DNA of 46,609 nucleotides, from assembly GCA_015063645.1 (NCBI GenBank), contig SVTS01000013.1, positions 1 to 46,609 on the forward strand, in the 5' to 3' direction. The position numbers and the translations under genes are program-made. Origin of the DNA: Oscillospiraceae bacterium. Lineage in GTDB: Bacteria > Bacillota > Clostridia > Oscillospirales > CAG-272. The notes under the pieces were generated by a model. It was not told where the DNA came from. It made no database searches and saw only the letters and a list, made by a program, of their open reading frames with translations. Within the stretch, counting starts at the first letter, position 1. Each line of letters starts with the position of its first letter. This document shows, piece after piece, positions 26,783 through 44,612 of the stretch.

Positions 26783-28165
26783 ATGAGAAAAAAATATATC
26801 CCCGCGCTGGCACTTCTGGCAGCCGCGCTGATCCTCATCGGCATCGCAGCCGGCCAGTTGATCCGCCGCGGGAAGGACACCGATACCGGCGAAGCCCTGC
26901 CGACAGATATTCAGGTGACCGAGCAGGAGACCACCGCACCGGTGACTACAGTTCCGGAGACTTCCGCGCCCGATACTACTGCTCCGGTGACTTCCGCGCC
27001 GGTGACCACCGCACCCGATACCACCGCGCCCGATACTACCGCGCCCGTGACCACCGCGCCCGATACTACCGCTCCGGCGACTTCCGCGCCGGTGACCACT
27101 GTGCCCGATACCACTGCTCCTGAGACCACTGCGCCGCCGCATTCCCATGCGCCGGCGGGAAATGTGCTCTGCGATGCGGATCGGCACTGGTATCTCTGTT
27201 CCTGCGGAATCACGCTCCGGGAGAGCGCCCATGCCGATTACAATCTGTCCGGGAAATGCGATCTCTGCGGCTATCCCATGCCTGTGGAGACACAGCCGCC
27301 GCAGACGTCTCCGGCGGAAACACAGCCGCCCATCCTTCAGGAAGGGGAAGCACTGCAGGAGATCCTGCAGCCTGCACAGATCACCCTGCTGCGCCCGGAA
27401 GCCAGCGGAACGCTTACCGCTGAAACAAAAACGGCTGTGCTGGATTATTCCCACACCGGGGACGGATATATCATGATCCGCTTCACCGAAGAGGTGACCG
27501 AACGGCTCAAGGTCAAGCTGGAAGGCCCGACAACGACCTACACCTACAACATAAAGCCGCTGGAATGGACCGTGTTCCCCCTGTCGGACGGAAACGGGGA
27601 ATACCGGGCGACAGTCTACCGCAACATATCCGGCAGCCGCTACGCCGCCGTGCTGGCACAGCGGTTCACCGCTCAGATGGAAAACGAATTCGCGCCGTTT
27701 CTGCGCCCCAATCAGTATGTGAATTACGAAAACGCCGTGAACACCATGAACAAGGCGGCAGAGCTGTCGGCGGGCATCACCGACACGCTGAAAAAAGTGG
27801 AAGCCATCTATTCCTATGTGACCCGGACAATCACGTACGATTATGACAAAGCCGGCTCGGTGCAGAGCGGCTACCTGCCGGATCTGGATCGGGTTCTGGA
27901 GGAAAAAAAGGGCATCTGCTTCGACTACGCCGCGCTGATGACCGGCATGCTCCGCTCCCAGAATATCGCCTGCAAGCTGATTGTGGGATATGCCGACAGT
28001 CAGTACCACGCCTGGATCAGCGTCTGGACGCCGGACAAGGGCTGGATCGACGGCGCGATCTTCTTCGACGGCGAAAAATGGCAGCGCATGGATCCCACCT
28101 TTGCCTCCGCAGGCGGAAGCAAGGCAATGGAGGGCGTCGTCTACACGTCCAAATATATCTACTGA
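26783..28165 (+). CDS. Membrane-anchored transglutaminase-like protein
   Basis: This 460-aa protein has an N-terminal membrane anchor (about residues 5-27), an extracytoplasmic Thr/Pro repeat linker (about 50-118), a small Cys-rich segment (about 130-172; CSCG and CDLCGYP, a possible metal-binding knuckle), a beta-rich domain and a C-terminal transglutaminase-like cysteine protease fold. The catalytic triad is visible as C379 (KKGICFDYAAL), H409 (YHAWISVW) and D437 (MDPTF). Such domains cleave or crosslink peptides or proteins outside the membrane. It is the first gene of the operon with pilus-like genes, 18 bp before gspF/pilC-like, and may process or crosslink their substrate. GAGAATGGAAAC provides a weak RBS. 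Confidence 0.87.
   Translation: MRKKYIPALALLAAALILIGIAAGQLIRRGKDTDTGEALPTDIQVTEQETTAPVTTVPETSAPDTTAPVTSAPVTTAPDTTAPDTTAPVTTAPDTTAPATSAPVTTVPDTTAPETTAPPHSHAPAGNVLCDADRHWYLCSCGITLRESAHADYNLSGKCDLCGYPMPVETQPPQTSPAETQPPILQEGEALQEILQPAQITLLRPEASGTLTAETKTAVLDYSHTGDGYIMIRFTEEVTERLKVKLEGPTTTYTYNIKPLEWTVFPLSDGNGEYRATVYRNISGSRYAAVLAQRFTAQMENEFAPFLRPNQYVNYENAVNTMNKAAELSAGITDTLKKVEAIYSYVTRTITYDYDKAGSVQSGYLPDLDRVLEEKKGICFDYAALMTGMLRSQNIACKLIVGYADSQYHAWISVWTPDKGWIDGAIFFDGEKWQRMDPTFASAGGSKAMEGVVYTSKYIY
26930..27138 (+). repeat. In-gene TTAP-type tandem repeat
   Basis: About 14 degenerate copies of a 5-residue unit (TTAPD, TTAPV, TSAPV and so on) encode the extracytoplasmic linker of the transglutaminase-like protein. 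Repeats of this type are prone to length change by slippage and are likely O-glycosylated or wall-spanning spacers. Confidence 0.8.
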
Positions 28166-28183
28166 TCACCGCGGGAGGAACTT

Positions 28184-29230
28184 ATGAAAGCCTTGCAACT
28201 GACCCACACAGAGTATGCCGGCATTTTCGGCAGGCTTGCTCTGCTGCTGCGAAGCGGAATCCCTCTCGGAGACGGGCTCCGGCTTCTCGGCGAGGAAGAG
28301 AAAGACGAATCCCTTGCCGCCGCTCTCACCGGTATGGCAGACCGGCTGGATACGGGTGAATATCTGTCTGACGCCATGGACAAAGCGGAATGCTTCACCG
28401 CGGCGGACACCGGCATGATCCGTGCGGCGGAAGCCGCCGGCAATATGGAGCAGGCACTTGCCTCCCTCGGCAGCTATCACGAGAGACAGGAGCGTCTGCG
28501 GGGCGTGATCCGCCGTTCGCTGACCTATCCGGCGGTTCTGGGCATTGTTATGCTCGCCGTACTGGTGCTTCTTGTGACGGAGGTTCTGCCGGTTTTTGAC
28601 GGAGTCTACCGTTCCCTCGGCGGAAGCATTTCCGGCCCTGCCGCCGGACTGCTTGCCTTCGGAAACGCGCTGGGAGTGATCCTGCCGTATATCGGAATCG
28701 TGCTTGCCGCCGTTGTCGCAGCTGCTGCCGTCATTGCACTGATCCCCCGGGCATCGGATGCCGTCCGGTCGGCTTTCCGCCGCCGATTCGGGGATCGGGG
28801 CATTTTGCGGAAAATGAACAACGCCCGCATGGCGCAGGCACTCGCCGCCGCCCTGAGCAGCGGTCTTCCCGCGGAGGAAGCGCTCCTTCTGGCAGAGGGG
28901 CTGATGAGCGACTGTCCCGGCGCGCTGCAGCGCTGCCGCGACTGCCGGGAAATGCTCCTCTCGGGACAGGATCTGACGGATGCTCTGGAAAAAGCAGAGC
29001 TTTTCTCCCCCGCAGACTGCCGGATGCTGTCCGTGGGACAGCGCACGGGCAATCTGGAGGAGGTCACGGATCATCTGGCACTCCGGATGGCGGAGGACGC
29101 GGAGAATGCGCTGGAAGAGCGGATTCTGCAGATCGAGCCTACCCTGATCCTTCTCACCTCCATTCTGGTGGGAATCCTTCTGCTGACAGTCATGCTTCCG
29201 CTGATCGACATCATGAATGCCATCGGGTGA
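28184..29230 (+). CDS. Type II secretion/type IV pilus inner-membrane protein (GspF/PilC-like)
   Basis: This 348-aa protein has two T2SSF domains. The first is about residues 10-125 (FGRLALLLRSGIPLGDGLRLL ... MIRAAEAAGNMEQAL) and the second about 210-320 (MAQALAAALSSGLPAEEALLL ... MLSVGQRTGNLEEV). Three membrane segments lie near 127-150, 160-185 and the C-terminus. It would be the platform protein of a pilus or pseudopilus assembly machine. GGGAGGAA precedes the ATG. Family lengths are typically about 350-400 aa, so it is compact but complete. Confidence 0.9.
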   Translation: MKALQLTHTEYAGIFGRLALLLRSGIPLGDGLRLLGEEEKDESLAAALTGMADRLDTGEYLSDAMDKAECFTAADTGMIRAAEAAGNMEQALASLGSYHERQERLRGVIRRSLTYPAVLGIVMLAVLVLLVTEVLPVFDGVYRSLGGSISGPAAGLLAFGNALGVILPYIGIVLAAVVAAAAVIALIPRASDAVRSAFRRRFGDRGILRKMNNARMAQALAAALSSGLPAEEALLLAEGLMSDCPGALQRCRDCREMLLSGQDLTDALEKAELFSPADCRMLSVGQRTGNLEEVTDHLALRMAEDAENALEERILQIEPTLILLTSILVGILLLTVMLPLIDIMNAIG

Positions 29231-29234
29231 ATCC

Positions 29235-29549
29235 ATGAGAAACAACACACGAAAACAGCTGCAGGTTTTTCTGCCGCTTCTGCTTGCCCTTGCGGTTCTC
29301 CTCGGATTTCTGGCGGCAGTCTCCCGTCTGGATGCGGGAAACCGCCGGGAGGAACAGCTCCGCCTGGAAGAGACGCTGAAGCGGGCAGCCATTGCCTGCT
29401 ATTCCCTGGAAGGGGCGTATCCGGTCTCGGCAGAGGCACTGGCGGCGTCCTCGGGGCTGTCCTGGAATACGAATCACTACGACGTGAAATACGAATACTG
29501 CGGCTCCAACCTGATGCCCGACATTACGGTGCTTATACGAAGAAAATGA
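29235..29549 (+). CDS. Pseudopilin-like small protein
   Basis: This 104-aa protein has a short basic N-terminus (MRNNTRKQ), one hydrophobic helix (about residues 10-29), then an amphipathic region (RREEQLRLEETLKRAAIACYSLEG) and a globular tail (YDVKYEYCGSNLMPDITVLIRRK). The layout resembles pseudopilins, but there is no classical prepilin cleavage site (G followed by FTLxE). The ATG at 29235 follows the pilC-like stop by four bases and has only a weak GGTGA RBS, so coupling is likely. The alternative ATG at 29217 overlaps the preceding gene. Confidence 0.75.
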   Translation: MRNNTRKQLQVFLPLLLALAVLLGFLAAVSRLDAGNRREEQLRLEETLKRAAIACYSLEGAYPVSAEALAASSGLSWNTNHYDVKYEYCGSNLMPDITVLIRRK

Positions 29550-30049
29550 AGACGAAACGAACCAACATCACCGCCGCGGCGCCCCTTGTGCTCCTCGCTT
29601 TTTTCGCGGTGCTGGCGGCGACCGTCCTGCTGACGGGAGCCACCCTGTACCGATCCCGGACGGAATCCGGGCAGATCGCCTGGGAAAAGCGTACCGCATC
29701 CCGGTATCTGTCGATGCGGATCCGCCAGAGCGATACGGCAGGCGCGTTCTTCGTGGGGGATTTTGACACAAAAGCCCCCGGCGGAAGCGGCGACACCTTT
29801 TTCGCCCTTGAGATGCATGACGGCGTGCTGTATTCCACCCGGATCTACGTCTGGGAGGGAAAGCTCTGCGAGCTGTTCGCCCCCCACGATGCCGATTTTG
29901 ACAGAGGGGACGGGGAAGTGCTGACTGCCCTGTCGGATCTGCATTTCACACTGGCGGGGGATCGCCTCGGCGCGCGTCTCCGCTTTGCGGACGGAACGGA
30001 GCAGGAGCTTTTTTTCACAATGCGCTCCTCCGGGGAGGCTCTGCCATGA
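29546..30049 (+). CDS. Single-TM pseudopilin-like protein (resembles DUF4860)
   Basis: This 167-aa protein has a cytoplasmic KTKR start, one TM helix (about 12-33), then an extracytoplasmic domain (YLSMRIRQSDTAGAF ... DTFFALEMHDGVLYSTRIYVWEGKLCELFAP). I recall DUF4860 proteins of this shape beside GspF and PilT genes in Clostridia, but the match is from memory. Its ATG overlaps the preceding stop codon (ATGA), indicating translational coupling. It may be a minor pseudopilin. Confidence 0.7.
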   Translation: MKTKRTNITAAAPLVLLAFFAVLAATVLLTGATLYRSRTESGQIAWEKRTASRYLSMRIRQSDTAGAFFVGDFDTKAPGGSGDTFFALEMHDGVLYSTRIYVWEGKLCELFAPHDADFDRGDGEVLTALSDLHFTLAGDRLGARLRFADGTEQELFFTMRSSGEALP

Positions 30050-30453
30050 AAAACAAATCCTATCTGCTCCTTCTGGAGCAGATGTGCATGATCCTTGTCT
30101 TTGCCCTTGCCGCCGCGCTCACTCTGCAGGGCTTCGCCCTGTCCGGGGAAATGATCCGGGAGAGCCGCACGCTGGAAAGCGCCTCTCTGGCGGCACAGAA
30201 TATGGCGGAAATCCTCAAACAGAGCGAGGGTGATCTCGCCTGCGCCGCCGAAATGCTGGGCGGCACCGCGGACAGCGCGGCGCGCCGCGTGATCTGCACC
30301 GATGAAGAAAACCGCTTCACGCTGACCGCAGAACTGACCGACACGGACAATCCCCTGCTCGGAGCCGCGCAGATCCGGGCGGAAGCCGCGGACGGCGGGA
30401 CAATTTATTCTCTGCGCGTTTGCTGGCAAAGGAGGGATCCCCTTGAAACATGA
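30046..30453 (+). CDS. Single-TM minor-pseudopilin-like protein
   Basis: This 135-aa protein has one N-terminal hydrophobic helix (LLLLEQMCMILVFALAAALTLQGF), followed by a helical stretch (SGEMIRESRTLESASLAAQNMAEIL) and a small beta-rich tail. That architecture fits minor pseudopilins, although the usual cleavage motif is absent. Its ATG overlaps the previous stop (ATGA), and the next gene starts inside it, so the four small genes are tightly coupled. No specific family is recognised. Confidence 0.7.
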   Translation: MKNKSYLLLLEQMCMILVFALAAALTLQGFALSGEMIRESRTLESASLAAQNMAEILKQSEGDLACAAEMLGGTADSAARRVICTDEENRFTLTAELTDTDNPLLGAAQIRAEAADGGTIYSLRVCWQRRDPLET

Positions 30454-30802
30454 TCGCGTCCCCCTCCCGACCCCCGTTGGCGTGACCACGCTTTTTGTGA
30501 TCTTCGCCGCCCTTTGCCTGACTGTTTTCTGCCTGCTTTCTCTCAGCACCGCCGACGCGGATCGCCGCCTTGCGGCATCCTCGGCGCAAGCCGCCGCGGC
30601 TTATTACGCCGCCGACTGCGAAGCGGAGCGGATCTTTGCTGAGCTCCGCGCCGGAAGAATGCCCGCCGGAGTCACGGCGGAGGGAAGCCGGTGCAGCTAT
30701 GTCTGCCCGATCACAGACACGCTCGCCCTGCACGTGGAGCTGATCCGCACGGAGAGCGGATGGAGCATCCTGCAGTGGCAGGCTGTATCGGAAAATCGAT
30801 AA
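30443..30802 (+). CDS. Single-TM minor-pseudopilin-like protein with TTG start
   Basis: This 119-aa protein starts at TTG, chosen because GGAGGGATCCCC precedes it at ideal spacing and no in-frame ATG fits. It has one hydrophobic helix (VTTLFVIFAALCLTVFCLLSLS), then an Ala-rich helix (AAYYAADCEAERIFAELRAG) reminiscent of PilX-like minor pilins, and a short tail. It overlaps the preceding gene by 11 nt. No named family is recognised. Confidence 0.7.
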   Translation: MKHDRVPLPTPVGVTTLFVIFAALCLTVFCLLSLSTADADRRLAASSAQAAAAYYAADCEAERIFAELRAGRMPAGVTAEGSRCSYVCPITDTLALHVELIRTESGWSILQWQAVSENR

Positions 30803-30822
30803 TCCCGGAAAGGAACCATACC

Positions 30823-31878
30823 ATGAACCAGCTGATATATTACCTGAAGCACGCGGTAGCGGAATGCGCATCGGATATTTTCTTCGTCGCCGGCGGACCT
30901 GTCAGCGAAAAGCGGGACGGTCACATTCTGCCGCTTGAGGAAGAGCGGCTTCTGCCGCCGGATACCGAGCGTCTGCTCCGTGCAATCTACGAAGCCGCCG
31001 GACGCTCCATCGACCGCTTTCTTGAGACGGGCGACGACGATTTTGCCTTCTCCATCCCCGGTCTCTCCCGCTTCCGCGTGAATGCCTACCGGCAGCGGGG
31101 CTCCATGGCTGCCGTGGTGCGGGTGGTCTCCTTTGACATCCCGGACTGGCAGCAGATCCACATCCCGGAGGCTGTTATGAAGCTCTCCGACATCACCCAC
31201 GGACTGATCCTCTTCACGGGCACCGCGGGCAGCGGCAAATCCACCACCCAGGCGTGCATCATCGACCGCATCAACCGGACGCGGGACTGCCACATCGTAA
31301 CGCTGGAGGATCCCATCGAATATCTGCACCGGAATCAGAAGAGTATCGTGAGCCAGAGAGAAATCGCCGTGGATACGGGGGATTATCTGTCGGCTCTGCG
31401 CGCCTGCCTGAGACAGGCGCCGGACGTCATTCTCCTCGGTGAGATGCGGGATCCGGAGACGATCCGCACCGCCATCACAGCCGCCGAGACCGGTCACACC
31501 GTTATCGCCACCATGCACACCAAGGGTGCCGTCAACGCCATCGACCGGGTGATCGATATCTTCTCCGGCTCCTATCAGGAGCAGTTCCGTTTTCAGCTGG
31601 CAACCGTTCTGCGGACGGTGGTCTCCCAGCAGATGCTCCCCGCAGGGGACGGCAGCAGCATCCCTGCCTTCGAGATCATGCACAACAACAGTGCCATCCG
31701 CAGCATGATCCGGGACAACCGCAATCACCAGATCGAAAACGCCATCCTCACCGGCCGTGCGGAGGGCATGGTTTCCATGGATGCCGCCATCCTCTCCCTC
31801 TGCCGGGACGGACTGATCACAAAAGAAACCGCCCTCGCCTACGCGGATCATCCGGACACGCTGGCAAGGCAGATCTGA
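30823..31878 (+). CDS. PilT/VirB11-family ATPase
   Basis: This 351-aa cytosolic hexameric motor ATPase has Walker A GTAGSGKS (residues 133-140), the TLEDPIEYLH Asp box, Walker B-like VILLGEMRDPETIR and the His box TGHTVIATMHT. LGEMRD with TAxxAAETGH is the PilT (retraction) type rather than PilB. The ORF track opens 44 codons early; the ATG at 30823 has AAAGGAACC and begins the conserved N-terminus. It ends the operon, with terminator 31915-31958. No PilB partner is in the window, so it may be the sole motor here or work with a distant one. Confidence 0.9.
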   Translation: MNQLIYYLKHAVAECASDIFFVAGGPVSEKRDGHILPLEEERLLPPDTERLLRAIYEAAGRSIDRFLETGDDDFAFSIPGLSRFRVNAYRQRGSMAAVVRVVSFDIPDWQQIHIPEAVMKLSDITHGLILFTGTAGSGKSTTQACIIDRINRTRDCHIVTLEDPIEYLHRNQKSIVSQREIAVDTGDYLSALRACLRQAPDVILLGEMRDPETIRTAITAAETGHTVIATMHTKGAVNAIDRVIDIFSGSYQEQFRFQLATVLRTVVSQQMLPAGDGSSIPAFEIMHNNSAIRSMIRDNRNHQIENAILTGRAEGMVSMDAAILSLCRDGLITKETALAYADHPDTLARQI

Positions 31879-32116: not shown

Positions 32117-33334
32117 GTGCCAAAAATTTACGTGAACATGTTCGGCGAATTCTCCCTTCACACGGACAATGCAGAAATACGCGAAACCGACAGCAGATCC
32201 CGGAAAGTCTGGCTTCTTCTGGCGTATCTGCTCTTTCATCACGCACGCCCGGTCAAGCCCGGCGAGCTGATGAATATGCTGTGGTCGGAAGGCGAAAAGG
32301 CACCCGGAGCACTCAAGACACTGCTGTACCGTGTCCGGACGGAACTGGACAAGCTGTGGGAGGGCGCAGGCAAGGAGCTGATTCTGTTCCGGCAGAACGG
32401 CTATATCTGGAACAGCGATATTCCGCTGCAGCTGGACTACGAGGAGTTCGACCGCCATTATGATACGCTTGCCGCATCCGGAGAAAGCAGCACGGAGGAG
32501 ACCGTCGCTCTGCTGGATCTGTACCGCGGAGATTTTCTGACGCATTTTTCCACCGAATTATGGGTGACGCCCCACGCCGTATATTACCACAATCTCTATA
32601 TTGAATCCCTGCTGGGCATCCTTCCGGTGCTGGAAGAGAACCGGCAGTTTGACGATATGCTCCGGCTCTGCCGGGCGGCAGCCGCAGGGGAGCCTTTCCA
32701 CGAGGGGATCCACTGCTGCCTGATGAAAGCGTACATCGGTCAGAAGAAATACAAGGAAGCGATGGAGGTCTACACCGAGCTGCGGGACCGCTTCCAGTCG
32801 GAATTGGGCGTTGTCCCCTCCGAGGAGATCCGGAGCATTTACGCCGAGGCAGCCCGCTGCGGCAGTCAGCACATACTCAATGCAGAGTCCCTGCGGGAGA
32901 ATCTGAACGAGAAGGATTCCCTTGCCGGCGCTCTCATCTGCGATTACGATTTCTTCCGCGTGCTGTATCAGTCCATGGCGCGCTCCGTCCTCCGCAGCGG
33001 CATTGCCGTCCATCTGGCGCTCCTCACTATGAAGGGCAGACGCGTGGAAATCACAAACGAAAAACGCTGGGAAAAGCTGAGCGCTCATCTGGAGGAGACG
33101 ATCCGTCACTCTCTGCGGCGGGGTGATTCCGCTGCCGCCTGCACCACCTCGCAGTATGTGATCATGCTGCCCCAGGCGAATTACGAAAACAGCTGCCGGG
33201 TCTGCGAGAGGATCATCAGCGGATATTATAAAAAAGTATCCCGTCTGGATATCGATATAAACTACGAAGTCTTTCCCATTCAGCCGGACAGCAAGGAGAA
33301 TTACCAATGGATAAGAGAACCGGATCAGCCCTGA
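32117..33334 (+). CDS. SARP/BTAD transcriptional regulator with degenerate GGDEF-like tail
   Basis: This 405-aa regulator has an OmpR-like winged-helix DNA-binding domain (about 1-100; KVWLLLAYLLFHHARPVKPGELMNMLW) and a bacterial transcriptional activation domain (about 105-250; LDLYRGDFL ... EAMEVYTELRDRFQSELGVVPS). The C-terminal 130 residues look like a decayed GGDEF domain: at the expected place the GGDEF motif is TTSQY (343-347), yet an RRGD sequence (R334 to D337) lies exactly five residues before it, as the RxxD inhibitory c-di-GMP site does in real GGDEF domains. It may thus sense c-di-GMP. I prefer the GTG at 32117 (AGGTGG five bases before); the GTG at 32108 is the alternative. It is the first gene of the NRPS operon, likely its activator, and overlaps the next gene by 28 nt. 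Confidence 0.85.
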   Translation: MPKIYVNMFGEFSLHTDNAEIRETDSRSRKVWLLLAYLLFHHARPVKPGELMNMLWSEGEKAPGALKTLLYRVRTELDKLWEGAGKELILFRQNGYIWNSDIPLQLDYEEFDRHYDTLAASGESSTEETVALLDLYRGDFLTHFSTELWVTPHAVYYHNLYIESLLGILPVLEENRQFDDMLRLCRAAAAGEPFHEGIHCCLMKAYIGQKKYKEAMEVYTELRDRFQSELGVVPSEEIRSIYAEAARCGSQHILNAESLRENLNEKDSLAGALICDYDFFRVLYQSMARSVLRSGIAVHLALLTMKGRRVEITNEKRWEKLSAHLEETIRHSLRRGDSAAACTTSQYVIMLPQANYENSCRVCERIISGYYKKVSRLDIDINYEVFPIQPDSKENYQWIREPDQP

Positions 33335-34245
33335 GGTTTCCGATCATCGCGGAATACCGCTGCGATGCGGAAGAGGGAAGACTGATCGGCGACTGCAGTG
33401 CGCTGGGTACATGGCTGGGCTATCCCCCGCAGGAGCTGCAGTCCCAGCGTATATCCCGCATTCTGACGCCGGATTCCCGCGAGGAAGCCCGCGCCATACG
33501 CAGCGCGCTGACAGAATCCTCCCCGCGGACAGATCGGCTTCTGGCGTTCCGGCACAGGGACGGACACGTTCTCTGGGCTCTGGTCTTTGCCGAGATTGTG
33601 AAAAATCCGGCGGGGGGGATCGAAATACTGCATTCACTGATCCCCGCTCCCGGAGCGGGGACTGTCTGTGAAACGGTGCAGGATGAGCTGGAAACCCAGC
33701 GCCTGCAGCTGATACAGAACCGGCGGACAATCGGCTCCCTGAGCCTGCGCGTCTCCCAGGATCCGCTGACACAGATCTACAACGCCGCATCGGTGCGGGA
33801 GCTGTCCGAGGAATATCTGGCATTCCCTGAGCGGAATTGTGCCGTTCTTGTGATCGACATCGACGATTTCAAGAAAATCAACGACTGCTACGGACATATT
33901 TTCGGAGATTCGGTGCTGATCTGCATTGCCGAAGCGATCCGGAAGCTTTTCCGCTCGCAGGATATCGTGGGCCGCGTGGGCGGCGATGAATTTTTTGTTC
34001 TGATGAAAGATACGGCGGACACCGCCATCATCCGGCGCCGCTGTGAGAAAATTGTCGAAACCTTCCGGGATATGCGTTTCCCCGGCAGGGAGGATGTCCG
34101 CATCTGCTGCTCGGTGGGCGCCGCTGTCTGCCCGCAGCAGGGGAAGAATTACACCACCCTCTTCCACGCGGCAGATCTGGCAATGTACCGCGCCAAAGCA
34201 TCCGGCAAAAACCGCTGCTGTCTGGCAGGCGAAGCGGACGGATGA
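33307..34245 (+). CDS. PAS-GGDEF diguanylate cyclase
   Basis: This 312-aa protein makes c-di-GMP. A PAS-like sensor (about residues 15-115; GTWLGYPPQELQSQRISRIL and HRDGHVLWAL) is joined by a helical linker to a GGDEF domain (about 150-305). Catalytic residues are intact: DIDDFKKIND (184-193) and GGDEF (225-229), and the inhibitory RxxD site is RSQD (216-219). It lacks membrane segments, so it responds to a cytosolic or diffusible cue. AAGGAG precedes the ATG. It lies between the SARP-like regulator and the NRPS. Confidence 0.92.
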   Translation: MDKRTGSALRFPIIAEYRCDAEEGRLIGDCSALGTWLGYPPQELQSQRISRILTPDSREEARAIRSALTESSPRTDRLLAFRHRDGHVLWALVFAEIVKNPAGGIEILHSLIPAPGAGTVCETVQDELETQRLQLIQNRRTIGSLSLRVSQDPLTQIYNAASVRELSEEYLAFPERNCAVLVIDIDDFKKINDCYGHIFGDSVLICIAEAIRKLFRSQDIVGRVGGDEFFVLMKDTADTAIIRRRCEKIVETFRDMRFPGREDVRICCSVGAAVCPQQGKNYTTLFHAADLAMYRAKASGKNRCCLAGEADG

Positions 34246-34287: not shown

Positions 34288-37200
34288 ATGTATCATTCCT
34301 CTGACGGACAGCGCTTTCCGCTGTCACTTAGCCAAATGAATATATGGAATCTCGAGCATGCGCTGCGGGGAACCTCCGTCAACAACATCAGTACCACGGT
34401 ACGGATCGACGGACGGCTGGATTTTCCCGCTCTGCAGAAATGCCTCGGACTGATTCTGGAAAGTGATGCATCCCTGCGCACCCGTCTGGTCGAGGAGGAC
34501 GGCAGGATTCTGCAGTACCACGCCCCCTATGAGGCGGAGGAGTTCCCGGTGTACGATTTTTCAAGCACCGGAAGCGACGGCGTTTCCAACTGGGAAAATG
34601 CCGTGACCCGCGAGCCCATTCCCCTCTTCGGCGGACCGCTCTACCGCTTTATCCTGTTCAAGGACGGCGAGCAGGGCGGCGGTATTCTGGTGAAGCTGCA
34701 TCACATCATCGCCGACGGCTGGACCCAGATCATGCTCTGCAACAAGATCGCCTGCGTGTATCTGGATCTGCTGGCAGGCAGGGAACCGCAGCTGCCCGAA
34801 GCCCCCGACTATGAACTGCACGTCAGGGAAGAGCAGGAGTATCTGGCGTCCAAAGCGTATCTGCGGGACGAAAAATACTGGAAAGATATCGTGCGCATGG
34901 CGGGTGAGCCATCCGTGCTGAAATCGGTGAGCAGTGCCTCCGTCAGCCCGGTGGGCAGGCGGGTGAGTTTTACACTGCCCGACGTCCTCAATCATGCGAT
35001 CTATACATACTGTGAAGAGAAGCGCGTCGCGCCCTTCGCTGTCTTCTATATGGCGCTGGCGATCTATTTCAAGCGGATCGGCGGTGCGGATCCCTTTACC
35101 ATCGGCGTTCCGATCTTCAACCGCACCAATTACACCTTCAAGCAGAGTACGGGCATGTTCGTCACCACGCTCCCTTTCTTCAATGAGATCGATTCCGCGT
35201 GGTCCCTGAACGAATTCAATAATGTGCTGACCGAGCGCTGGCTGGAGCTTCTCCGCCATCAGCGCTATCCTTTCACGTCCATCACCGAGCTGACGGACGG
35301 CGGACGGCTCTTCCACATCGCTCTCTCCTATCAGGACAGTAAGATCTACGAAAGCCGGGATGCGTCCGTGACGTTCAGCGGCCGCTGGCATTACTGCGGC
35401 TATCAGGCAGAACAGCTGACCATCCATCTGACCAATCTGACCAATCACCAGCGCTATGCGGTGGATTATGACTATCTGGCGCAGTTCTTCTCCGAGGAGG
35501 AGATCGGCGCACTGCACCGGAACCTCTGCCATATTCTGGCGGAGGCGCTGGCGGAGCCCGACCGCCCGATCCACCGGCTGAATGTCCTTTCGCTGGAGCA
35601 GAAGGAAGAGCTTCTGTACACCTTCAACCGCACGGAGCGGTATCTGAAGGAGCAGTCCCTGTATGAAGCGCTGATAGAAAACAACGCCCGTCATCCGAAC
35701 CGCGCCGCGCTGATATACGGCGGCGAGCGGATGAGTTACGGCGCTCTTTTCCAGAGAGGCATGGCATTTGCCTCCCGCCTTGCGGCACTGAAGCCGGACG
35801 GCGAGGTGCTGATCGCCATCCTGCTCCCCCGTTCCTTCGATCTGATTGCAGCCATGGTGGGCACACTGCAGATGGGGGGCGCTTTCCTGCTGCTTTCCCC
35901 GTCTCTGCCCGATGAGCGGATCCGGCGCATTCTGGAACAGAGCGGCGCTTCCGCCCTCGTTACCCTCCGCGAGAATCGGAAGCGGATTCCGGAGGAGACA
36001 CTGCCCGTTCTGTACAGCGATGAGATCACCGTAACATTCCCGGAGCCGATCCGGAATGAAATACCCGAAGGCGTGCTCCCCGGCGACCGTCTTGCCTACG
36101 TTGTGTACACATCCGGCAGTACCGGCGAGCCGAAGGGCGTGGAAATCACCCAGCGCAGCGTGCTGAATCTGGCACAGGAGATGGAGAATGTGTACGGTCA
36201 GGGTGCTGTTCTGTCCGTGTGCAATATCGGCTTTGATGCCTTCATGCTGGAAAGCATCGCCGCCCTTCTCAACGGAAAAACAATCGTCCTTCCCCAGGAC
36301 GGCGAGACGGATTCGCCGGAGCGGCTTGCCTCTCTGATGAACGGCTACGCGGTGGATTTCCTGGCGACCACCCCCTCCCGCCTGTCCGCGCTGCTGAATC
36401 ATGAATGCTTCCGCCGGGTGATGTGGCGCATGTCCGCCATCGTCTGCGGCGGCGAGCCGTTCCCCGCAGAGCTTCTGAAAAAGCTCAAAGCCTGCACCAA
36501 GGCACGGATCTACAATCAGTACGGACCCTCCGAAACCACGGTAGCGGTCAGCATGAAGGAAATGTCCGCCGCCGACAGGATCACCATCGGCACGCCGCTG
36601 GGCAACTGCCGGCTGTACGTGCTGGATCCGTGGATGAATCCCCTCCCCATCGGCGGCAGCGGCAAGCTGTTCGTCGGAGGCACCTGCGTCGGTCGTGGAT
36701 ACCGCGGACGTCCCGATCTGAGCGAAGCGGTATTCCGCCGCAATCCCTTTGTATATAACGACCGGATCTACGATACCGGCGATATGGCATACTGGACCCC
36801 CGAGGGCGAGATAGTCCTGACAGGGCGGGCGGACCGCCAGATCAAGCTGCGCGGTCTGCGGATCGAGTTGTCCGAGATCTCCTCCTGTCTGGAATCGTTC
36901 CCCGGTGTGACCGCCGCACACGCGCGCCTCTGTGAAATCGGCGGACAGCCCGTTCTGGGCGCCTACTATTCCTCCGCAAATGAGCTGCGGGAATCCGATC
37001 TGCTGGCGCACGCCGCCACCTATCTTCCCACCTATATGATCCCGGCATTCCTGATGCGCGTGCCGGAATTCCGTGTGACTGCCAACGGAAAGATCGACGA
37101 GAGTCTGCTTCCCATGCCGGATCGGAAACGGACGGAATCCGGCGGCGCGACGGAATGCGCCCGCCGTGTCACGGAAATCTTCGGGGAAGTGCTCGGATGC

Positions 37201-40200
37201 GGCGATCTGTCCCCGGAAAGCGACTACTTCCTCTCCGGCGGAGATTCGCTCAATATGATGAGCTGCCTCATCCGTCTGGAAAAATCATTCGGCGTCAGGC
37301 TGCGGCCGGGCGATCTGTATGCCTGCCGCACGGCTTCCCGTCTGGCAGAGAGAATCGACACGCTCCGCGGTGTCACATCCGCGGCAGCGCCGACCGCGCA
37401 CACCCTGCGCAAAACCGCAAAGCAGAGCCGCTATCCCCTGATGCCGCTGCAGCAGGGCATCTATATCCAGTCGGTACTGGATCCCAGCGGTCTCACCTAC
37501 AATATGCCCGGCGCATTCCGTCTGGCGGAGGAGCCGGACAGAGCCCGTCTTACCCGTGCGTTTGAGAATATCATCCGTCAGGATCCGATCTTCCGCACGT
37601 CCTTTGTACAGCATGCGGACGGCGTATACGCTGTGATCGCCGATGAAGTCCCCTTCACCCTGGAGGAGATCACGGCTTCCTCCTTTGAGGATGCCGGCGC
37701 ACAGTTCCTTCGTCCCTTTGATCTGACGGCGGCACCGCTGCTGCGGGGCGCCGTATGGCAGTCCCCCGAGGGAGACTGGTATCTGCTGATGGACAGCCAC
37801 CACATCATCGGCGACGGCATGAGCACGCCGCTGGTGCTGCAGAGGCTGGATCAGGCGTATACCGGCACGGAATCTGCCGCAGAATGGGATTTTTACGACT
37901 ATATCTCCGCCCGTCAGGGGGAATCAGAGGAGGAAAAGGCGGCTGATCTGCAGTACTGGATCAAAGAGCTTGCCGATCTTCCCGAGCCGCTCGTGCTCCC
38001 GGGTGATTATCCCCGGGCAAAAGAATTTGATTATGCCGGCGGCGAATGGGAGCATCCCCTTCCGGATGCGCTCTGCCGCAGTATCGGGGAATTCTGTGCG
38101 AAATCCGGTCTCTCGGAGTTCGTGCTCTTCCTCTCCGCCTATGCCCTCCTTCTGTCCGCCGTATCGGGCGAGAGCGATCTGGTAATCGGTACGCCGTCCG
38201 CAGGACGGGATTATCCGGGTACCGACACCGTCTGCGGACCGTTCATTCAGACGCTTCCTCTCCGCCTCCGCCTCGATCCGGAGTGTACGGCTGAGGACTG
38301 GATGAAGCGCGTCGCCGGAACCGTATCCGGCATGCTGGATCACCGGCAGATCGGTCTGGAGGACATCATCACCGCCCTGGATCTGCCACGCGGCGCCCAG
38401 AATGCGCTGTACCGCGTCATGCTGACCCAGAGCCCCGTGGATGAAAATGCCTTCCGTCTGGGCGGAAAACCCATGAACTTCCGCGCCATTCCCACAGGAG
38501 CGGTCAAAATGGATATGATCCTGGAGATCGCCCGGAAAGAACACAGCCGGACGCTCCGCTTCTCCTATGCCCGCTCGATATTTGCCGAGGAGACGGTCGC
38601 CTTCTGGGGCAGATGCCTTGAGCAGGCACTGCGGGAGCTGATCCGCGGCGGCGATCGGAAGATCACCCCTGCCGCACTTCTTTCCCCCGCCGATCGGGAA
38701 ACGTACTGGGAGGAGCCGCTTTACCGCACGACTCCCTTTGTGAACCGTCCCATCCATCAGATGCTGAAAGCAAAAGCCGCCGCATCCCCCGAGGAAACGG
38801 CTGTCATCTGGCATGGGGAAACGGTCTCCTTTGCCGCAATCGAGGGCAGAGCCTGTGCCATCGCCCGCTTCCTTGAGGAAAGCGGTATTGCCGCCGGCTC
38901 CTGCGTAGCCCTCTGCCTGAAACGCACGCCGGATATGATCGCCGCCATGTACGGCGTTCTGAAAGCCGGATGCGCCTATCTGTTTCTGCTGGACACCTTC
39001 CCCGAAGCCAGACTCCGCTCCATGCTGGAATTGTCCGGCGCGGCAGCCGTGCTCTGCGGCGATTCTGTTCCGCCGGTGCTGGCTGAGAGTATGGTACTGT
39101 ATCCCGTTCTCTGCCTGCCTGCGGGATATGAGGACAGCTATACCGACCGACCGGTCATGGACGACAGTCTGGTAAACGTACTGTTCACCTCCGGTTCCAC
39201 CGGTCAGCCCAAGGGCGTTATGCTCCGTCACCGTTCCGTATCCAATCTCTGCAGTCAGATGAAATCCCTGCTCGATCCGCTGGACGGACGGGTGCTCTGC
39301 TCCACCAATGCGGTATTCGACTGCTTCATCGTGGAGACACTGATCGCCCTGGCGCTGGGACGCACGGTCGTGCTGGCGGACGAGGAAGAGATGCTGCTCC
39401 CGTGGAAGCTGGGACAGCTGATCACCGAGTACGGCGCCGGCATCACGGAAATGACCCCCTCGCGCCTGTGGATGTGCCTGGGAAGCGAGGATTTCCGCCG
39501 CGCGGCGCGGGATATCCGTATCGTACTGCTGGGCGGCGAAGCCGTCACCCGCAGTCTGGCGGACAAATTCCTCTCCTGCAGTGACGGAATTCTGATGAAC
39601 ATGTACGGACCCACCGAAGCCACGGTCTTCACCACCATGGGTCCTGTCCGCGCGGACGAGCCGATCACCATCGGCGCTCCGCTGCAGAATACACGCACCT
39701 ACGTTCTCGATGAGAACCGCAATCCGGTGCTCCCCACCGGCTGCGGCGAGTTGTACATCGCGGGCGAATGTCTCTCCGCCGGATATATTTCCTGCCCGGA
39801 TATGACGCAGGCATCGTTCACGGACGATCCCTTCTTCCCCGGTCAGAAGATGTACAAGAGCGGCGATCTGGTCCGCCTCCGCACGGACGGCAGATTCGAT
39901 TATATCGGACGCAGGGATCAGCAGATCAAGCTGAACGGTCAGCGTGTGGAGCTGAGCGAAATCTCCGGCGCGCTGGAGCAGATCGACGGCATCCGTCAGG
40001 CGGCCGCCGATGCTCTGCGGCATGAAAACGGCACGCAGGAGCTGTTTGCGTTCTGCGTATGCGCCGAGAATGCGCCGACGGACGAGGAGATCCTCCTCCG
40101 TCTGGGCGAAACGCTGCCCCCGTACATGGTGCCCTCCCGGCTGATCCGGATCGGTGCCATGCCGCTGACGTCGACAGGCAAGATCGACCGACAGACCCTG

Positions 40201-41667
40201 CAGAAATGGGCGGCTCTGCCTCCCTCCGACAAGTCCGCCGATGCGCAGAAGGATGTCCCCGCTGAAATTCCCGCGGAAATCCATGAGGAAATCCCCGCGG
40301 AAGTGACCGTCCCCGGAAGCGAAGCGTATGTACGGGGCATCTGGTCGCAGGTGCTCAGCCACAGCGATCCGGATCCGGAGATCTCCTTCTTCAAGCAGGG
40401 GGGAACCTCCCTTGCGGCACTGACGGTTCTCAGCCATTATTATAACGATCATATGGAAATGTCCCTCGCGGAATTCTACGAGAATCCCACCGTCCGCGCC
40501 CAGGCAGCTCTGCTGAGCCGCGGCAGAAATTCCGGGGACAAAACGCAGGAAGCTGCCGACGGGGAGAATGCTCCCGACGGGGAGGAAGACAGGCAGACCG
40601 TTCTGCTGACCGGTGCAACTGGCTTCTTCGGCAGTCATCTTCTGCAGGCACTCTATGAGGAAAACCGCTCCCGGATCATCTGTCTGATCCGCGGCGGAGA
40701 CCGGACGCGTCTGCACCGTATGCTCGCCTTCTATTTCGGTGAGGAGACTGCCTCCGCCATGACGGCGGACACGGATCACCTGCGCGTTCTGGACGGCGAT
40801 CTTACAAAGGAACGCCTCGGTCTCGGAGAGGATGCATACGCGGAGCTCGCCGGATCGGTGCGGGAGATCTATCACTGCGCCGCCGATGTACGCCATTACG
40901 CCGCCGACGATTCCCTCCACAGACAGATCAACGCAGAGGGAACCGGACGCCTGCTTGCGCTTGCACGTGAAGCGGATGCGGCATTCTATCACATGTCCAC
41001 CTGCAGTGTCAGCGGGGACGTGATGAAGGACGGCTCCCGCGGTGTACGCTTCACCGAAGAGGATCTGGATATCGGACAGATCTGGGAACGCAATGTCTAC
41101 GTCCGCACGAAATTCCAGGCGGAGCAGCTGGTCACAGCTGCCATGGAGCAGGGACTGCGCGCCCGCATCTTCCGTCTGGGACGTCTGGTCGGACGGATGA
41201 GCGACGGCAAATTCCAGATCAATCCGGAAGAGAATGCCTTCTGGCTGTTTATGCGCGGCATGATGCAGCTCGGACAGATTCCCCTCTCGGCAGCGGAGAT
41301 TTCTCTGGATCTGATGCCGGTGGATCTGGCGGTACAGCAGGTGATGACGCTCCGTCATGCGCCGGGACCCGTATTCCACATTATGAACGGCAATCCGCCG
41401 ACTCTGGCGGAGATTCTGCAGGCTATAAGCGGATCCGCCAAAACCGTGGAGGATCATGTATTCCGTCAGGCACTTTCCCGGGAGAATGCCGGCATGGATC
41501 CCACGCAGACGGCGCTGGTGATCAACAACTGGCTGCAGCTGAAAGCGGTCCGGGACGGCATTACGGTGGACTGCAGCCGGACGCAGGCTGCCCTCAAGGC
41601 GCTCGGATTTGACACTCCGTCTTTCTCACCTGCGACGGTGCTGCGCGCATTCAAAAATGAGGTGTGA
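34288..41667 (+). CDS. Two-module NRPS with terminal thioester reductase (C-A-T-C-A-T-R)
   Basis: This 2459-aa assembly-line enzyme has, in order: C1 (about 10-440, HHIIADG 138-144), A1 (about 450-940, YTSGSTGEPKG 607-617, Lys935), T1 (GGDSL, Ser987), C2 (about 1045-1465, HHIIGDG 1171-1177), A2 (about 1485-1970, FTSGSTGQPKG 1633-1643, Lys1965), T2 (GGTSL, Ser2041) and a C-terminal NAD(P)H-binding reductase (GATGFFG 2109-2115; YVRTK, Tyr2271 and Lys2275). Beginning with a C domain suggests an acyl starter, which the ligase and ACP downstream could supply. The reductase should release an N-acyl dipeptide aldehyde. By-eye specificity codes are DALAVGQVAK (A1) and DCVELGMVFK (A2), which I cannot assign; Asp at the first position fits alpha-amino acids. 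AAAGGA precedes the ATG. Confidence 0.95.
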   Translation: MYHSSDGQRFPLSLSQMNIWNLEHALRGTSVNNISTTVRIDGRLDFPALQKCLGLILESDASLRTRLVEEDGRILQYHAPYEAEEFPVYDFSSTGSDGVSNWENAVTREPIPLFGGPLYRFILFKDGEQGGGILVKLHHIIADGWTQIMLCNKIACVYLDLLAGREPQLPEAPDYELHVREEQEYLASKAYLRDEKYWKDIVRMAGEPSVLKSVSSASVSPVGRRVSFTLPDVLNHAIYTYCEEKRVAPFAVFYMALAIYFKRIGGADPFTIGVPIFNRTNYTFKQSTGMFVTTLPFFNEIDSAWSLNEFNNVLTERWLELLRHQRYPFTSITELTDGGRLFHIALSYQDSKIYESRDASVTFSGRWHYCGYQAEQLTIHLTNLTNHQRYAVDYDYLAQFFSEEEIGALHRNLCHILAEALAEPDRPIHRLNVLSLEQKEELLYTFNRTERYLKEQSLYEALIENNARHPNRAALIYGGERMSYGALFQRGMAFASRLAALKPDGEVLIAILLPRSFDLIAAMVGTLQMGGAFLLLSPSLPDERIRRILEQSGASALVTLRENRKRIPEETLPVLYSDEITVTFPEPIRNEIPEGVLPGDRLAYVVYTSGSTGEPKGVEITQRSVLNLAQEMENVYGQGAVLSVCNIGFDAFMLESIAALLNGKTIVLPQDGETDSPERLASLMNGYAVDFLATTPSRLSALLNHECFRRVMWRMSAIVCGGEPFPAELLKKLKACTKARIYNQYGPSETTVAVSMKEMSAADRITIGTPLGNCRLYVLDPWMNPLPIGGSGKLFVGGTCVGRGYRGRPDLSEAVFRRNPFVYNDRIYDTGDMAYWTPEGEIVLTGRADRQIKLRGLRIELSEISSCLESFPGVTAAHARLCEIGGQPVLGAYYSSANELRESDLLAHAATYLPTYMIPAFLMRVPEFRVTANGKIDESLLPMPDRKRTESGGATECARRVTEIFGEVLGCGDLSPESDYFLSGGDSLNMMSCLIRLEKSFGVRLRPGDLYACRTASRLAERIDTLRGVTSAAAPTAHTLRKTAKQSRYPLMPLQQGIYIQSVLDPSGLTYNMPGAFRLAEEPDRARLTRAFENIIRQDPIFRTSFVQHADGVYAVIADEVPFTLEEITASSFEDAGAQFLRPFDLTAAPLLRGAVWQSPEGDWYLLMDSHHIIGDGMSTPLVLQRLDQAYTGTESAAEWDFYDYISARQGESEEEKAADLQYWIKELADLPEPLVLPGDYPRAKEFDYAGGEWEHPLPDALCRSIGEFCAKSGLSEFVLFLSAYALLLSAVSGESDLVIGTPSAGRDYPGTDTVCGPFIQTLPLRLRLDPECTAEDWMKRVAGTVSGMLDHRQIGLEDIITALDLPRGAQNALYRVMLTQSPVDENAFRLGGKPMNFRAIPTGAVKMDMILEIARKEHSRTLRFSYARSIFAEETVAFWGRCLEQALRELIRGGDRKITPAALLSPADRETYWEEPLYRTTPFVNRPIHQMLKAKAAASPEETAVIWHGETVSFAAIEGRACAIARFLEESGIAAGSCVALCLKRTPDMIAAMYGVLKAGCAYLFLLDTFPEARLRSMLELSGAAAVLCGDSVPPVLAESMVLYPVLCLPAGYEDSYTDRPVMDDSLVNVLFTSGSTGQPKGVMLRHRSVSNLCSQMKSLLDPLDGRVLCSTNAVFDCFIVETLIALALGRTVVLADEEEMLLPWKLGQLITEYGAGITEMTPSRLWMCLGSEDFRRAARDIRIVLLGGEAVTRSLADKFLSCSDGILMNMYGPTEATVFTTMGPVRADEPITIGAPLQNTRTYVLDENRNPVLPTGCGELYIAGECLSAGYISCPDMTQASFTDDPFFPGQKMYKSGDLVRLRTDGRFDYIGRRDQQIKLNGQRVELSEISGALEQIDGIRQAAADALRHENGTQELFAFCVCAENAPTDEEILLRLGETLPPYMVPSRLIRIGAMPLTSTGKIDRQTLQKWAALPPSDKSADAQKDVPAEIPAEIHEEIPAEVTVPGSEAYVRGIWSQVLSHSDPDPEISFFKQGGTSLAALTVLSHYYNDHMEMSLAEFYENPTVRAQAALLSRGRNSGDKTQEAADGENAPDGEEDRQTVLLTGATGFFGSHLLQALYEENRSRIICLIRGGDRTRLHRMLAFYFGEETASAMTADTDHLRVLDGDLTKERLGLGEDAYAELAGSVREIYHCAADVRHYAADDSLHRQINAEGTGRLLALAREADAAFYHMSTCSVSGDVMKDGSRGVRFTEEDLDIGQIWERNVYVRTKFQAEQLVTAAMEQGLRARIFRLGRLVGRMSDGKFQINPEENAFWLFMRGMMQLGQIPLSAAEISLDLMPVDLAVQQVMTLRHAPGPVFHIMNGNPPTLAEILQAISGSAKTVEDHVFRQALSRENAGMDPTQTALVINNWLQLKAVRDGITVDCSRTQAALKALGFDTPSFSPATVLRAFKNEV

Positions 41668-41670
41668 TTC

Positions 41671-43548
41671 ATGATTTCCAACACATCCGTTGCTGTCTTT
41701 CTGATAGCGCTGTTTATTCTGCTTGTCTTCTTTCTGTGGAGTATGACGGTGCAGAAGAAACGCCGCTGGCTGCACAAACTCTATCTGATGCTGGCAACCG
41801 CCTACGCAAGCTGGATTCTGCAGCTGATCGTTATGCGGTTCATTCCGGAGGACAACCGTCTGGCGTTCTACGTACTCGACTGCCTGATGCAGCCGGGCGG
41901 CGCGCTGTGCGCTCCTCTGTATCTGTGCATCGCCGTCACCTTCGTAACCGGACGGGAGACTCCGCCGCGCTGGTTCCGGCTCCTCTTTGTGGTGCCGGTT
42001 CTGACGATTCTCATCGCCTGGACGAATCCGCTGCACCATCTGTATTATCAGAACTTTTCCGTGGTCCGCAGTGAGATCGTCTTCGGTCCGTACATCATCG
42101 TCAGCGGTCTGTTCAGTTATATTTTCCTGCTCGGCGCCATCGTTTACATGGTCGTGTTCGGACTGCGGAACAAAAGCGCCCTGTACTGGAAGCAGTTCGC
42201 CATGCTGGCGATCAGCGGACTCTGCCCCCTTGCGGTGAGCATGTTCGCCACCTTCAGCGGCAGCGAAGTGCCCATCACCGCCACGCCCATGAGCTTCATG
42301 GTGACGCTGGTGCTGAACGGCATCGCCATCTTTCAGCTGAACATGCTGGATATCGTGCCCATCGCCACCCAGCACGTTCTGGATGCTTTCTCGGACGGCT
42401 ACATCGTCCTCAGCGAGGACGGCATCGTCATCAAATACAACAGGATTTTCGAGGAGCTGTTCGCAAGGCGGTACGGCATCACCGAAAACAAAAAGCTCAT
42501 CGACTGCATTCGTCAGGAAGACGGCATGCAGAAGAGCCCCGTATACAGCATGCTGTCGGCGCTGGAATCCGGCAGCAGGGAAAACACGCATATCTCCTAC
42601 GAGCAGACGCTGACTGTGCAAAGCGGCGACGCGGTAAGCAAAAAATACTTCGTTGTGGATCTGACGCCGCTGGTGCTGAACGGCAGAATCTCCGGCTTCG
42701 TCATCGTATTCAAGGATGTCACGCAGCTGCGGGACAGCCTGAAGCGCCTGCAGGACAGTCAGGAACGCATGCTGGAACAGGAGCGTTTCGCATTCCTCGG
42801 TCAGATGATCGGCGGTCTCGCCCACAACCTGAAGACACCGATCATGAGCATCTCCGGCTGCATTTCCGCCGCGGAGGCACTGGTGGACGAATGCACGGAA
42901 AGCCTGGACGATCCGGAGGTCACAAAAGAGGATTATCTGGAAATCTACGGGGAAATGCGGGACTGGTTCGCCAAGGTCCGCGAATCCACCGCCTATATGT
43001 CGGATATCATCACGGCGATCAAGGGGCAGGCGACCAACATCGGCACCGATGACAACGTCACCTTCACCATTGAAGAAATGCTCAAGCGGAGCATGCTGCT
43101 GATGCGCCACGAGCTGCTCAACAGCGGCTGCCGCCTCAAGCTGGATTACAACCGGGACGAGGAGATCACCCTGCAGGGCGATATCAACAACCTCGTGCAG
43201 GTCATCGGCAATCTGCTCAGCAACGCCATCTACGCCCAGAAGGAAATGGGCGGCGGCGAAATCGAGATCCGGATCCGCCGGGATGAGGAAAAACTGGACA
43301 TCTGCGTCATGGACCGCGGCTCCGGCATCCCCGAAAACGTACAGCAGAAGCTGTTCAAATCCATGATAACGAGCAAGGGAACCATGGGAACGGGACTGGG
43401 ACTCTATATTTCCAACGCGGTGATCCGCAGTAAATTCAACGGTGAAATGCGCGCGGAAAACCGTGAGGGCGGCGGAAGCACATTTGTGATTTCGATTCCT
43501 GCCGAACTGGTGAATGTCCGCACTGCTAAGACCGCAAGGGAGGGATAA
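41671..43548 (+). CDS. Membrane sensor histidine kinase (7TM-PAS-HisKA-HATPase)
   Basis: This 625-aa kinase has seven hydrophobic segments (about residues 5-230), like the HisK N-terminal 7TM sensor, then a PAS domain (about 240-355; AFSDGYIVLSEDGIVIKYNRIFEELF), the dimerisation domain with phospho-acceptor H385 (GGLAHNLKTP) and an ATPase domain (N box NLLSNAIYAQ, DRGSGIP, GTGLGLYIS). It is three bases downstream of the NRPS, with GAGGTG as RBS, so it is coupled to it. Its likely partner is the REC-HD-GYP protein that follows six bases later, making the membrane signal control c-di-GMP breakdown. It may sense the exported product or an external cue. Confidence 0.92.
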   Translation: MISNTSVAVFLIALFILLVFFLWSMTVQKKRRWLHKLYLMLATAYASWILQLIVMRFIPEDNRLAFYVLDCLMQPGGALCAPLYLCIAVTFVTGRETPPRWFRLLFVVPVLTILIAWTNPLHHLYYQNFSVVRSEIVFGPYIIVSGLFSYIFLLGAIVYMVVFGLRNKSALYWKQFAMLAISGLCPLAVSMFATFSGSEVPITATPMSFMVTLVLNGIAIFQLNMLDIVPIATQHVLDAFSDGYIVLSEDGIVIKYNRIFEELFARRYGITENKKLIDCIRQEDGMQKSPVYSMLSALESGSRENTHISYEQTLTVQSGDAVSKKYFVVDLTPLVLNGRISGFVIVFKDVTQLRDSLKRLQDSQERMLEQERFAFLGQMIGGLAHNLKTPIMSISGCISAAEALVDECTESLDDPEVTKEDYLEIYGEMRDWFAKVRESTAYMSDIITAIKGQATNIGTDDNVTFTIEEMLKRSMLLMRHELLNSGCRLKLDYNRDEEITLQGDINNLVQVIGNLLSNAIYAQKEMGGGEIEIRIRRDEEKLDICVMDRGSGIPENVQQKLFKSMITSKGTMGTGLGLYISNAVIRSKFNGEMRAENREGGGSTFVISIPAELVNVRTAKTAREG

Positions 43549-43553
43549 CAGCC

Positions 43554-44612
43554 ATGAGACGAAACAAAACCGCCGTTCCCGCGCAGATCTCCATTCTGAC
43601 GGTTGACGACGATCCGATCATAACCTCAACCATAAAGGACTATTTTGAACGTCTCGGCTATGAGGTGGATATCGAAAACAACCCGGTGAATGCCATCGAA
43701 CGGGTACGCGGCGGCAAATACGATATTATGCTTCTGGACTTTCTCATGACGCCCATCTGCGGCGATCAGGTCGTCGAGGAGATCCGTAAGTTCAACAAGG
43801 ATCTGTTCATCGTTCTGCTGACCGGTCACAAGAGCATGGCTCCGCCGGTCAAAACCATCCGTCAGCTGGATATCCAGGGATATTACGAAAAAGATGACCG
43901 CTTTGACCAGCTGGAGTTGTGGGTGGAATCCTGCGTGAAATCCATCCGCCATCTGCGCACGATCAGAGAATATCAGAAGGATCTGATGCACGCCTACATG
44001 CAGACCATCGAAACCCTGCGCAGCGTGGTGGAAGCCCGTGACTCCGAGACCCGCGGTCACTCCGAGCGCGTATCCTGTCTGGCGGGAGCGCTTGCCGCAC
44101 AGCTTGCACTCTCCGAAAAAGAAATCGAGCAGATCACCACCGCCGGTCTCTTCCACGATATCGGCAAAATTGCCGTTCCCGACGCGGTTCTTCTGAAGCA
44201 GGGACCGCTGACAGAGGATGAATTCGCACAGATCCGCCTGCATCCCGGCAGCGGTGAAATGATCCTCAGCACGTTTACCCCCTTCCGCGAACTGCTCCCC
44301 ATCGTCCGCGGTCACCACGAACGCCTGGACGGAAGCGGCTACCCCGACAAGCTGAAAGCAGATGAAATCTGCATCGGCGCCAGGATCATCGCGGTGGCGG
44401 ATTCGTTTGATGCCATGGTATCCAACCGCGTCTACCGTCCCGGTCTCGGCGTGGACCGGGCGCTTCAGGAGCTGATCCGCAGCCGCGGCGTTCAGTTTGA
44501 CGGCGAGGTTGTGGATGCCTTTCTCCGCATGATGGAGGAGATGGGACGGGATATGTTCTGCCGGAAATTCTGTGCACATACCCTTGATGAGGGTGGAAAG
44601 GAGCCTGTATGA
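43554..44612 (+). CDS. Response regulator with HD-GYP c-di-GMP phosphodiesterase output
   Basis: This 352-aa protein joins a receiver domain (about residues 12-130; DDD 18-20, phospho-acceptor D62 in IMLLDFLMTP, T90, K113) to an HD-GYP domain (about 150-335; FHDIGK with H201-D202, and HHERLDGSGYP 254-264). HD-GYP enzymes hydrolyse c-di-GMP to GMP. With the adjacent histidine kinase it forms a two-component system that removes the messenger made by the GGDEF protein of the same operon. No DNA-binding domain is present. It overlaps the ligase gene by four bases (ATGA). Confidence 0.93.
   Translation: MRRNKTAVPAQISILTVDDDPIITSTIKDYFERLGYEVDIENNPVNAIERVRGGKYDIMLLDFLMTPICGDQVVEEIRKFNKDLFIVLLTGHKSMAPPVKTIRQLDIQGYYEKDDRFDQLELWVESCVKSIRHLRTIREYQKDLMHAYMQTIETLRSVVEARDSETRGHSERVSCLAGALAAQLALSEKEIEQITTAGLFHDIGKIAVPDAVLLKQGPLTEDEFAQIRLHPGSGEMILSTFTPFRELLPIVRGHHERLDGSGYPDKLKADEICIGARIIAVADSFDAMVSNRVYRPGLGVDRALQELIRSRGVQFDGEVVDAFLRMMEEMGRDMFCRKFCAHTLDEGGKEPV

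Follow-up and report, generated by a model that had tools for sequence, protein, structure and literature searches.

A SARP-type regulator with a catalytically dead, I-site-keeping GGDEF domain as a putative c-di-GMP receptor in Oscillospiraceae

A regulator of the SARP family, encoded in a gut bacterium of the Oscillospiraceae on contig SVTS01000013.1 (here called the window, the whole analysed stretch of 46,609 nucleotides), carries a degenerate GGDEF domain as its C-terminal tail. We propose, with a probability of roughly three in four, that this tail is a catalytically dead GGDEF domain retained as a receptor for c-di-GMP, which would make the protein a c-di-GMP-responsive SARP. The dead domain keeps its I-site, and the only detected enzymes for making and probably destroying c-di-GMP are encoded in the same antibiotic-type gene cluster. 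Computation established the fold, the loss of the catalytic residues, the selective conservation of the I-site, the gene order and the absence of any other detected GGDEF, HD-GYP, EAL or PilZ domain in the genome. The features are listed in Table 1.

Table 1. Features of the regulator locus (positions in the window)
Feature	Position	Strand	Remarks
Pilus-like operon: transglutaminase-like lipoprotein, PilC-like protein (T2SSF), pilin-like proteins, PilT-like ATPase (T2SSE)	26783..31878	+	upstream of the SARP gene, same strand
SARP-type regulator, 405 aa	32117..33334	+	GTG start; winged helix ~1-98, BTAD ~106-244, degenerate GGDEF ~252-405
Degenerate GGDEF tail of the SARP	32867..33334	+	C-terminal ~155 residues; phmmer, profile search, AlphaFold2, Foldseek
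R293, aligned with WspR R198, the second arginine of the I-site	32993..32995	+	sequence alignment; 144/149 tails
RRGD, RxxD core of the I-site (R334-R335-G336-D337; R334, D337)	33116..33127	+	aligns with WspR R242/D245
TTSQY in place of GGDEF (T343-T344-S345-Q346-Y347)	33143..33157	+	both acidic residues gone; from the sequence; family consensus S-x-S-Q-[YF]
R365, equivalent of R402 in PelD of P. aeruginosa, R395 in PelD of B. cereus and presumably (numbering and alignment) PleD R390	33209..33211	+	kept in 143/149 tails vs 7/56 catalytic GGDEFs
PAS-GGDEF diguanylate cyclase	33307..34245	+	GGDEF motif at 33979-33993; own RSQD I-site; Pfam GGDEF 1.1e-37
Two-module NRPS	34288..41667	+	two condensation, two adenylation, two carrier domains, one terminal NAD-binding reductase
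7TM-PAS histidine kinase	41671..43548	+	
REC-HD-GYP, candidate c-di-GMP phosphodiesterase	43554..44612	+	intact HDIGK (44154) and HHERLDGSGYP (44313)
Stand-alone AMP-forming ligase of the cluster	44609..46252	+	

Architecture and fold of the regulator

The reading frame of the SARP gene is also open from a GTG at 32108; the GTG at 32117 has AGGTGG just 5' of it and agrees with the starts of the homologues. With the latter start, the residue numbering of a preliminary description of this locus proved right, as did its open reading frame, motif and coordinates. Pfam recognises the BTAD clearly (2.9e-15, 57 bits against a cut-off of 22.1), and the N-terminus reaches 20.8 bits for Trans_reg_C, under the cut-off of 26.2 that the relatives L031 and L228 pass. 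An N-terminal winged helix of the OmpR type is supported by matches of the structural model to AfsR and EmbR. In the Foldseek search with the full-length AlphaFold2 model (pLDDT 92.3), EmbR (1e-10) and AfsR (4.5e-10) came first, followed by GGDEF domains.

Taken alone, the tail matches a diguanylate cyclase whose crystal structure contains c-di-GMP (3ign, E=2e-5, phmmer). A profile built from 66 tails found 13 PDB chains, all of them GGDEF or diguanylate cyclase entries (best 1.5e-10); the best chain, titled 'uncharacterized', is SadC according to the Foldseek search. The Pfam GGDEF model recognises 46 of the 66 tails of relatives, and the window's own tail is not among them. The AlphaFold2 model of the tail (pLDDT 91.1, pTM 0.82) shows the strand and helix order of a GGDEF domain, and almost all of its best 50 PDB matches in Foldseek are GGDEF-domain proteins (TMq mostly 0.5-0.67). 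Because phmmer, profile, Pfam, AlphaFold2 and Foldseek agree, the likeness goes beyond chance. Structure prediction, which had been put forward as the test of a GGDEF-like fold, thus bore this fold out, and the full-length model agrees with it.

Neither sequence hallmark of an active diguanylate cyclase, GG[DE]EF and D.D.FK, is present in the tail, where TTSQY and LLTMKG stand instead. The replacement of the catalytic motif and the loss of the D.D.FK loop had both been described before, together with an RRGD exactly five residues ahead of TTSQY, and the sequence confirms all three.

Conservation of the I-site within the tail family

Relatives of the tail were searched for in the bacterial family, in 394 genomes of the order and 391 of the class, and among GTDB representatives. 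The whole protein as query gave no match against the genome contigs; a profile scan instead gave 71 loci, and a plasmid collection contained a single weak relative. Both BTAD and tail are covered in 139 relatives, and tails were found in Oscillospiraceae and other Clostridia (Oscillibacter, Flavonifractor, Pseudoflavonifractor, Flintibacter and many gut metagenome assemblies). The tail is therefore an old module and not a one-off. It also occurs at the C-terminus of REC-GGDEF and REC-HD-GYP-GGDEF proteins (L078, L095, L096, L230-L232), in most of which an active-looking GGDEF precedes it (RFGAD instead in L096), so that the tail accompanies c-di-GMP enzymes outside SARPs, too. In one SARP (L031:5912-7099, genome G039), the tail alone passes the Pfam GGDEF cut-off (25.7 bits); Pfam-based counts of diguanylate cyclases in Clostridia will take in some dead tail domains.

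The set that aligned without long gaps comprised 149 distinct tails. In those listed, GGDEF has given way to S-x-S-Q-[YF] or near variants, and the D.D.FK loop has disappeared. Gln stands in for the Glu of GGDEF in practically all; alignments of 66 and 73 rows show it without exception, as do the most frequent motifs among the 149 tails. RxxD is kept in 143 of the 149, and the full set of R293, R334, D337 and R365 likewise in 143. For comparison, 56 catalytic GGDEF domains of the same order were read at fixed offsets, at which indels could hide a few residues: RxxD is present in 40 of them, the third arginine in 7 and all of R/D/R in 5. Since all four residues persist in 143/149 tails versus R/D/R in 5/56 catalytic domains, conservation of the I-site exceeds what GGDEF ancestry alone accounts for.

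These positions have known roles in c-di-GMP binding. R242 and R198 of WspR contact c-di-GMP, R198 coming from the neighbouring domain (PMC2270323). PelD of B. cereus is a dead GGDEF receptor with a wild-type KD of 103 nM for c-di-GMP and no longer binds it when R363, D366 or R395 is changed to alanine (PMC7112168). These three residues are the equivalents of the R/D/R set in the tail, which supports the reading of the tail as a c-di-GMP receptor; R334 and R365 are spaced by 31 residues, their counterparts in this PelD by 32.

In six tails, R334 and R365 are lost jointly (L009/G217, L011/G096, L012/G182, L013/G035, L014/G139 and L228/G465). All six keep the Gln and the signature of the fold, and five keep D337; R293 is also lost in five. 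Five of these tails (L009, L011-L014) belong to the genus g36, and in this branch the GGDEF fold, as far as it can be judged from the sequences, outlives the loss of the I-site. The six genomes gave no GGDEF match and no HD-GYP match. Of 54 genomes with intact tails, paired by hand, 52 contain a GGDEF, among them G267, scored as positive from a cyclase gene that runs off its contig. The other two, G039 (96% complete) and G589 (98%), combine an intact I-site with no GGDEF found; a weak GGDEF match in G039 is accounted for by the SARP tail itself. Across the order, a GGDEF match occurs in 66/68 genomes with a strong tail match versus about 148/326 others, counts that can include an occasional tail and come from genomes and tails related by descent. 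Because of this relatedness, Fisher p values are not counted here as evidence.

A single clade for the I-site losses was not rejected by the tree (AU p=0.56; root of the tree not fixed), and the genome count is therefore not a set of independent trials. As five of the six losses fall into one genus and may form one clade in a tree with unfixed root, we regard the joint loss of I-site and GGDEF/HD-GYP enzymes as supporting, not decisive, evidence for c-di-GMP binding.

A c-di-GMP module inside an NRPS cluster

The SARP gene overlaps the gene of the PAS-GGDEF cyclase by 28 bp (ATGGATAAGAGAACCGGATCAGCCCTGA). No GGDEF enzyme other than this cyclase was found in the genome, and the REC-HD-GYP protein of the same NRPS cluster contains the only HD_5 domain found; with an assembly of 3.03 Mb that is 83% complete, 'only' means the only one found. 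Searches of this genome for EAL and PilZ domains found none. A search for c-di-GMP-I riboswitches also gave no match here, but control genomes gave none either. Judged by the detected genes, positions 33307-44612 would form a self-contained c-di-GMP module inside the NRPS cluster. The product of this reductase-type NRPS is probably a peptide aldehyde.

The order SARP, PAS-GGDEF and NRPS recurs in L127, L129-L133, G428 and G483, with kinase, REC-HD-GYP and ligase also downstream in the latter two, and the 28-bp overlap is retained in several clusters. G150, G069, G428 and G483 each have one GGDEF and one HD-GYP, and in all four genomes both belong to the cluster; G267, with its truncated cyclase gene, has one HD-GYP, on another contig. 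The SARPs of the NRPS clusters form one clade (100/100), although their host genomes belong to three families (f1, f10 and f17), a pattern that fits transfer of the whole cluster between families.

In most relatives, no GGDEF gene is adjacent to the SARP gene; other GGDEF genes lie within a few kb of it in L140, L169, L179 and L181, in genomes without the NRPS cluster. A pilus-like operon adjoins the SARP gene in 49 of 71 relatives, mostly in divergent orientation (hand count). It accompanies the SARP through the Oscillospiraceae and could encode either a pilus or a secretion pseudopilus. We infer that this operon is the older target of the SARP and that a single branch later acquired the NRPS cluster. 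SARP-type direct repeats were looked for in 42 divergent intergenic regions between SARP gene and pilus-like operon, and no shared motif was found; a period-21 repeat signal in such regions was raised, but came mostly from one locus (L130) and was discarded. Type IV pili in clostridia are controlled by c-di-GMP through a riboswitch; here, control of the pilus by c-di-GMP would run through the SARP instead.

Proposed mechanism, alternatives and related systems

In the proposed mechanism, the overlapping PAS-GGDEF enzyme would make c-di-GMP, and the kinase-controlled REC-HD-GYP of the same cluster would probably remove it. The nucleotide would bind the I-site of the tail through R334, D337 and R365, to which a partner domain probably adds its R293, and by linking two tails would change a presumed SARP dimer. 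The dimer would then be set to bind the promoters of two putative targets, the NRPS operon and the pilus-like operon next to it. We take the effect to be activation, with repression as the alternative sign.

An explanation without c-di-GMP binding would make the tail a protein-protein module whose partner is either a second tail or the GGDEF domain of the cyclase encoded by the overlapping gene, and which relays the state of the enzyme to the SARP. GGDEF domains do dimerise, the gene overlap is kept in several clusters and the conserved arginines could form salt bridges. However, most relatives have no GGDEF gene beside the SARP, and pairing explains neither why exactly the nucleotide-binding residues are conserved nor why they are lost in genomes without GGDEF and HD-GYP, so we consider it improbable. 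We give similarly little credence to the idea that the tail binds GTP, ppGpp or cGAMP rather than c-di-GMP, whether in the I-site or in the former active-site cleft. The practically invariant Gln in place of the catalytic Glu suggests that the old active site may still act, but it has lost both the metal-binding acids and the D.D.FK loop, and the conserved residues are the I-site set. Moreover, the adjacent cyclase keeps the Asp of GHIFGD, which we take to be the guanine-selecting position of GGDEF enzymes.

Least probable is a ligand-free relic whose RxxD descends from a GGDEF ancestor and is retained for the sake of folding. The presence of RxxD in 40/56 catalytic domains and the two intact tails in genomes without detected GGDEF would suit such a relic. 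Against it, 143/149 tails retain three arginines despite their strong divergence, whereas R/D/R occurs in only 5/56 true GGDEFs. The g36 branch, moreover, has lost the arginines without losing the fold.

The c-di-GMP receptor reading joins two kinds of protein that are each already known, dead GGDEF receptors and SARPs with a C-terminal sensor domain. The former are represented by PelD of Pseudomonas aeruginosa and Bacillus cereus, in which, as in the tail, a dead GGDEF carries the I-site RxxD and a third arginine, there binding c-di-GMP. Unlike the SARP, PelD is a membrane GAF-GGDEF protein that acts on polysaccharide synthesis and is no DNA-binding activator; its GGDEF domain is absent in streptococci, where c-di-GMP is not used (PMC7112168). 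WspR and PleD share the I-site with the tail, including the R242xxD245 and R198 positions of WspR, but are active cyclases under feedback inhibition, while the active site is gone in the tail. EmbR and AfsR, the best structural matches to the N-terminal part, resemble the SARP in combining winged helix and BTAD with an extra C-terminal sensor or effector domain. This is an FHA domain in EmbR and an ATPase/TPR part in AfsR, and to our knowledge neither protein has a GGDEF domain. VfmE of Dickeya is, as far as we know, not a SARP and unrelated to the regulator described here. One report describes this transcription factor as a c-di-GMP effector (PMC9045272).

In the open-access full-text literature, we found no paper in which a SARP or BTAD protein carries a GGDEF domain or a receptor domain for c-di-GMP, nor one on the fusion of SARP and dead GGDEF, its spread in Clostridia or a c-di-GMP circuit contained in one cluster. 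Databases probably list the SARP and GGDEF architecture already, because Pfam calls GGDEF in many members; what seems undescribed is the dead, I-site-keeping nature of the GGDEF on the SARP.

On balance, we lean slightly towards a broader picture, in which c-di-GMP-sensing SARPs serve a widespread clade of Clostridia as activators gated by their ligand, mostly next to a type IV pilus-like operon. One branch would have entered a biosynthetic cluster with a complete c-di-GMP circuit (cyclase, kinase-controlled phosphodiesterase and receptor-activator) and thereby bring c-di-GMP into genomes otherwise without sign of using it. With one cyclase, one phosphodiesterase and one receptor as the only detected c-di-GMP parts, the cluster offers a simple system for studying signal specificity, and the natural I-site-loss variants of g36 and L228 can serve as negative controls. 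The proposal also gives a testable claim on how a reductase-type NRPS of the gut is switched on. If it is true, the SARPs, a family known from the control of antibiotics, would gain a direct second-messenger input, and gut Clostridia would have a named transcription factor that responds to c-di-GMP.
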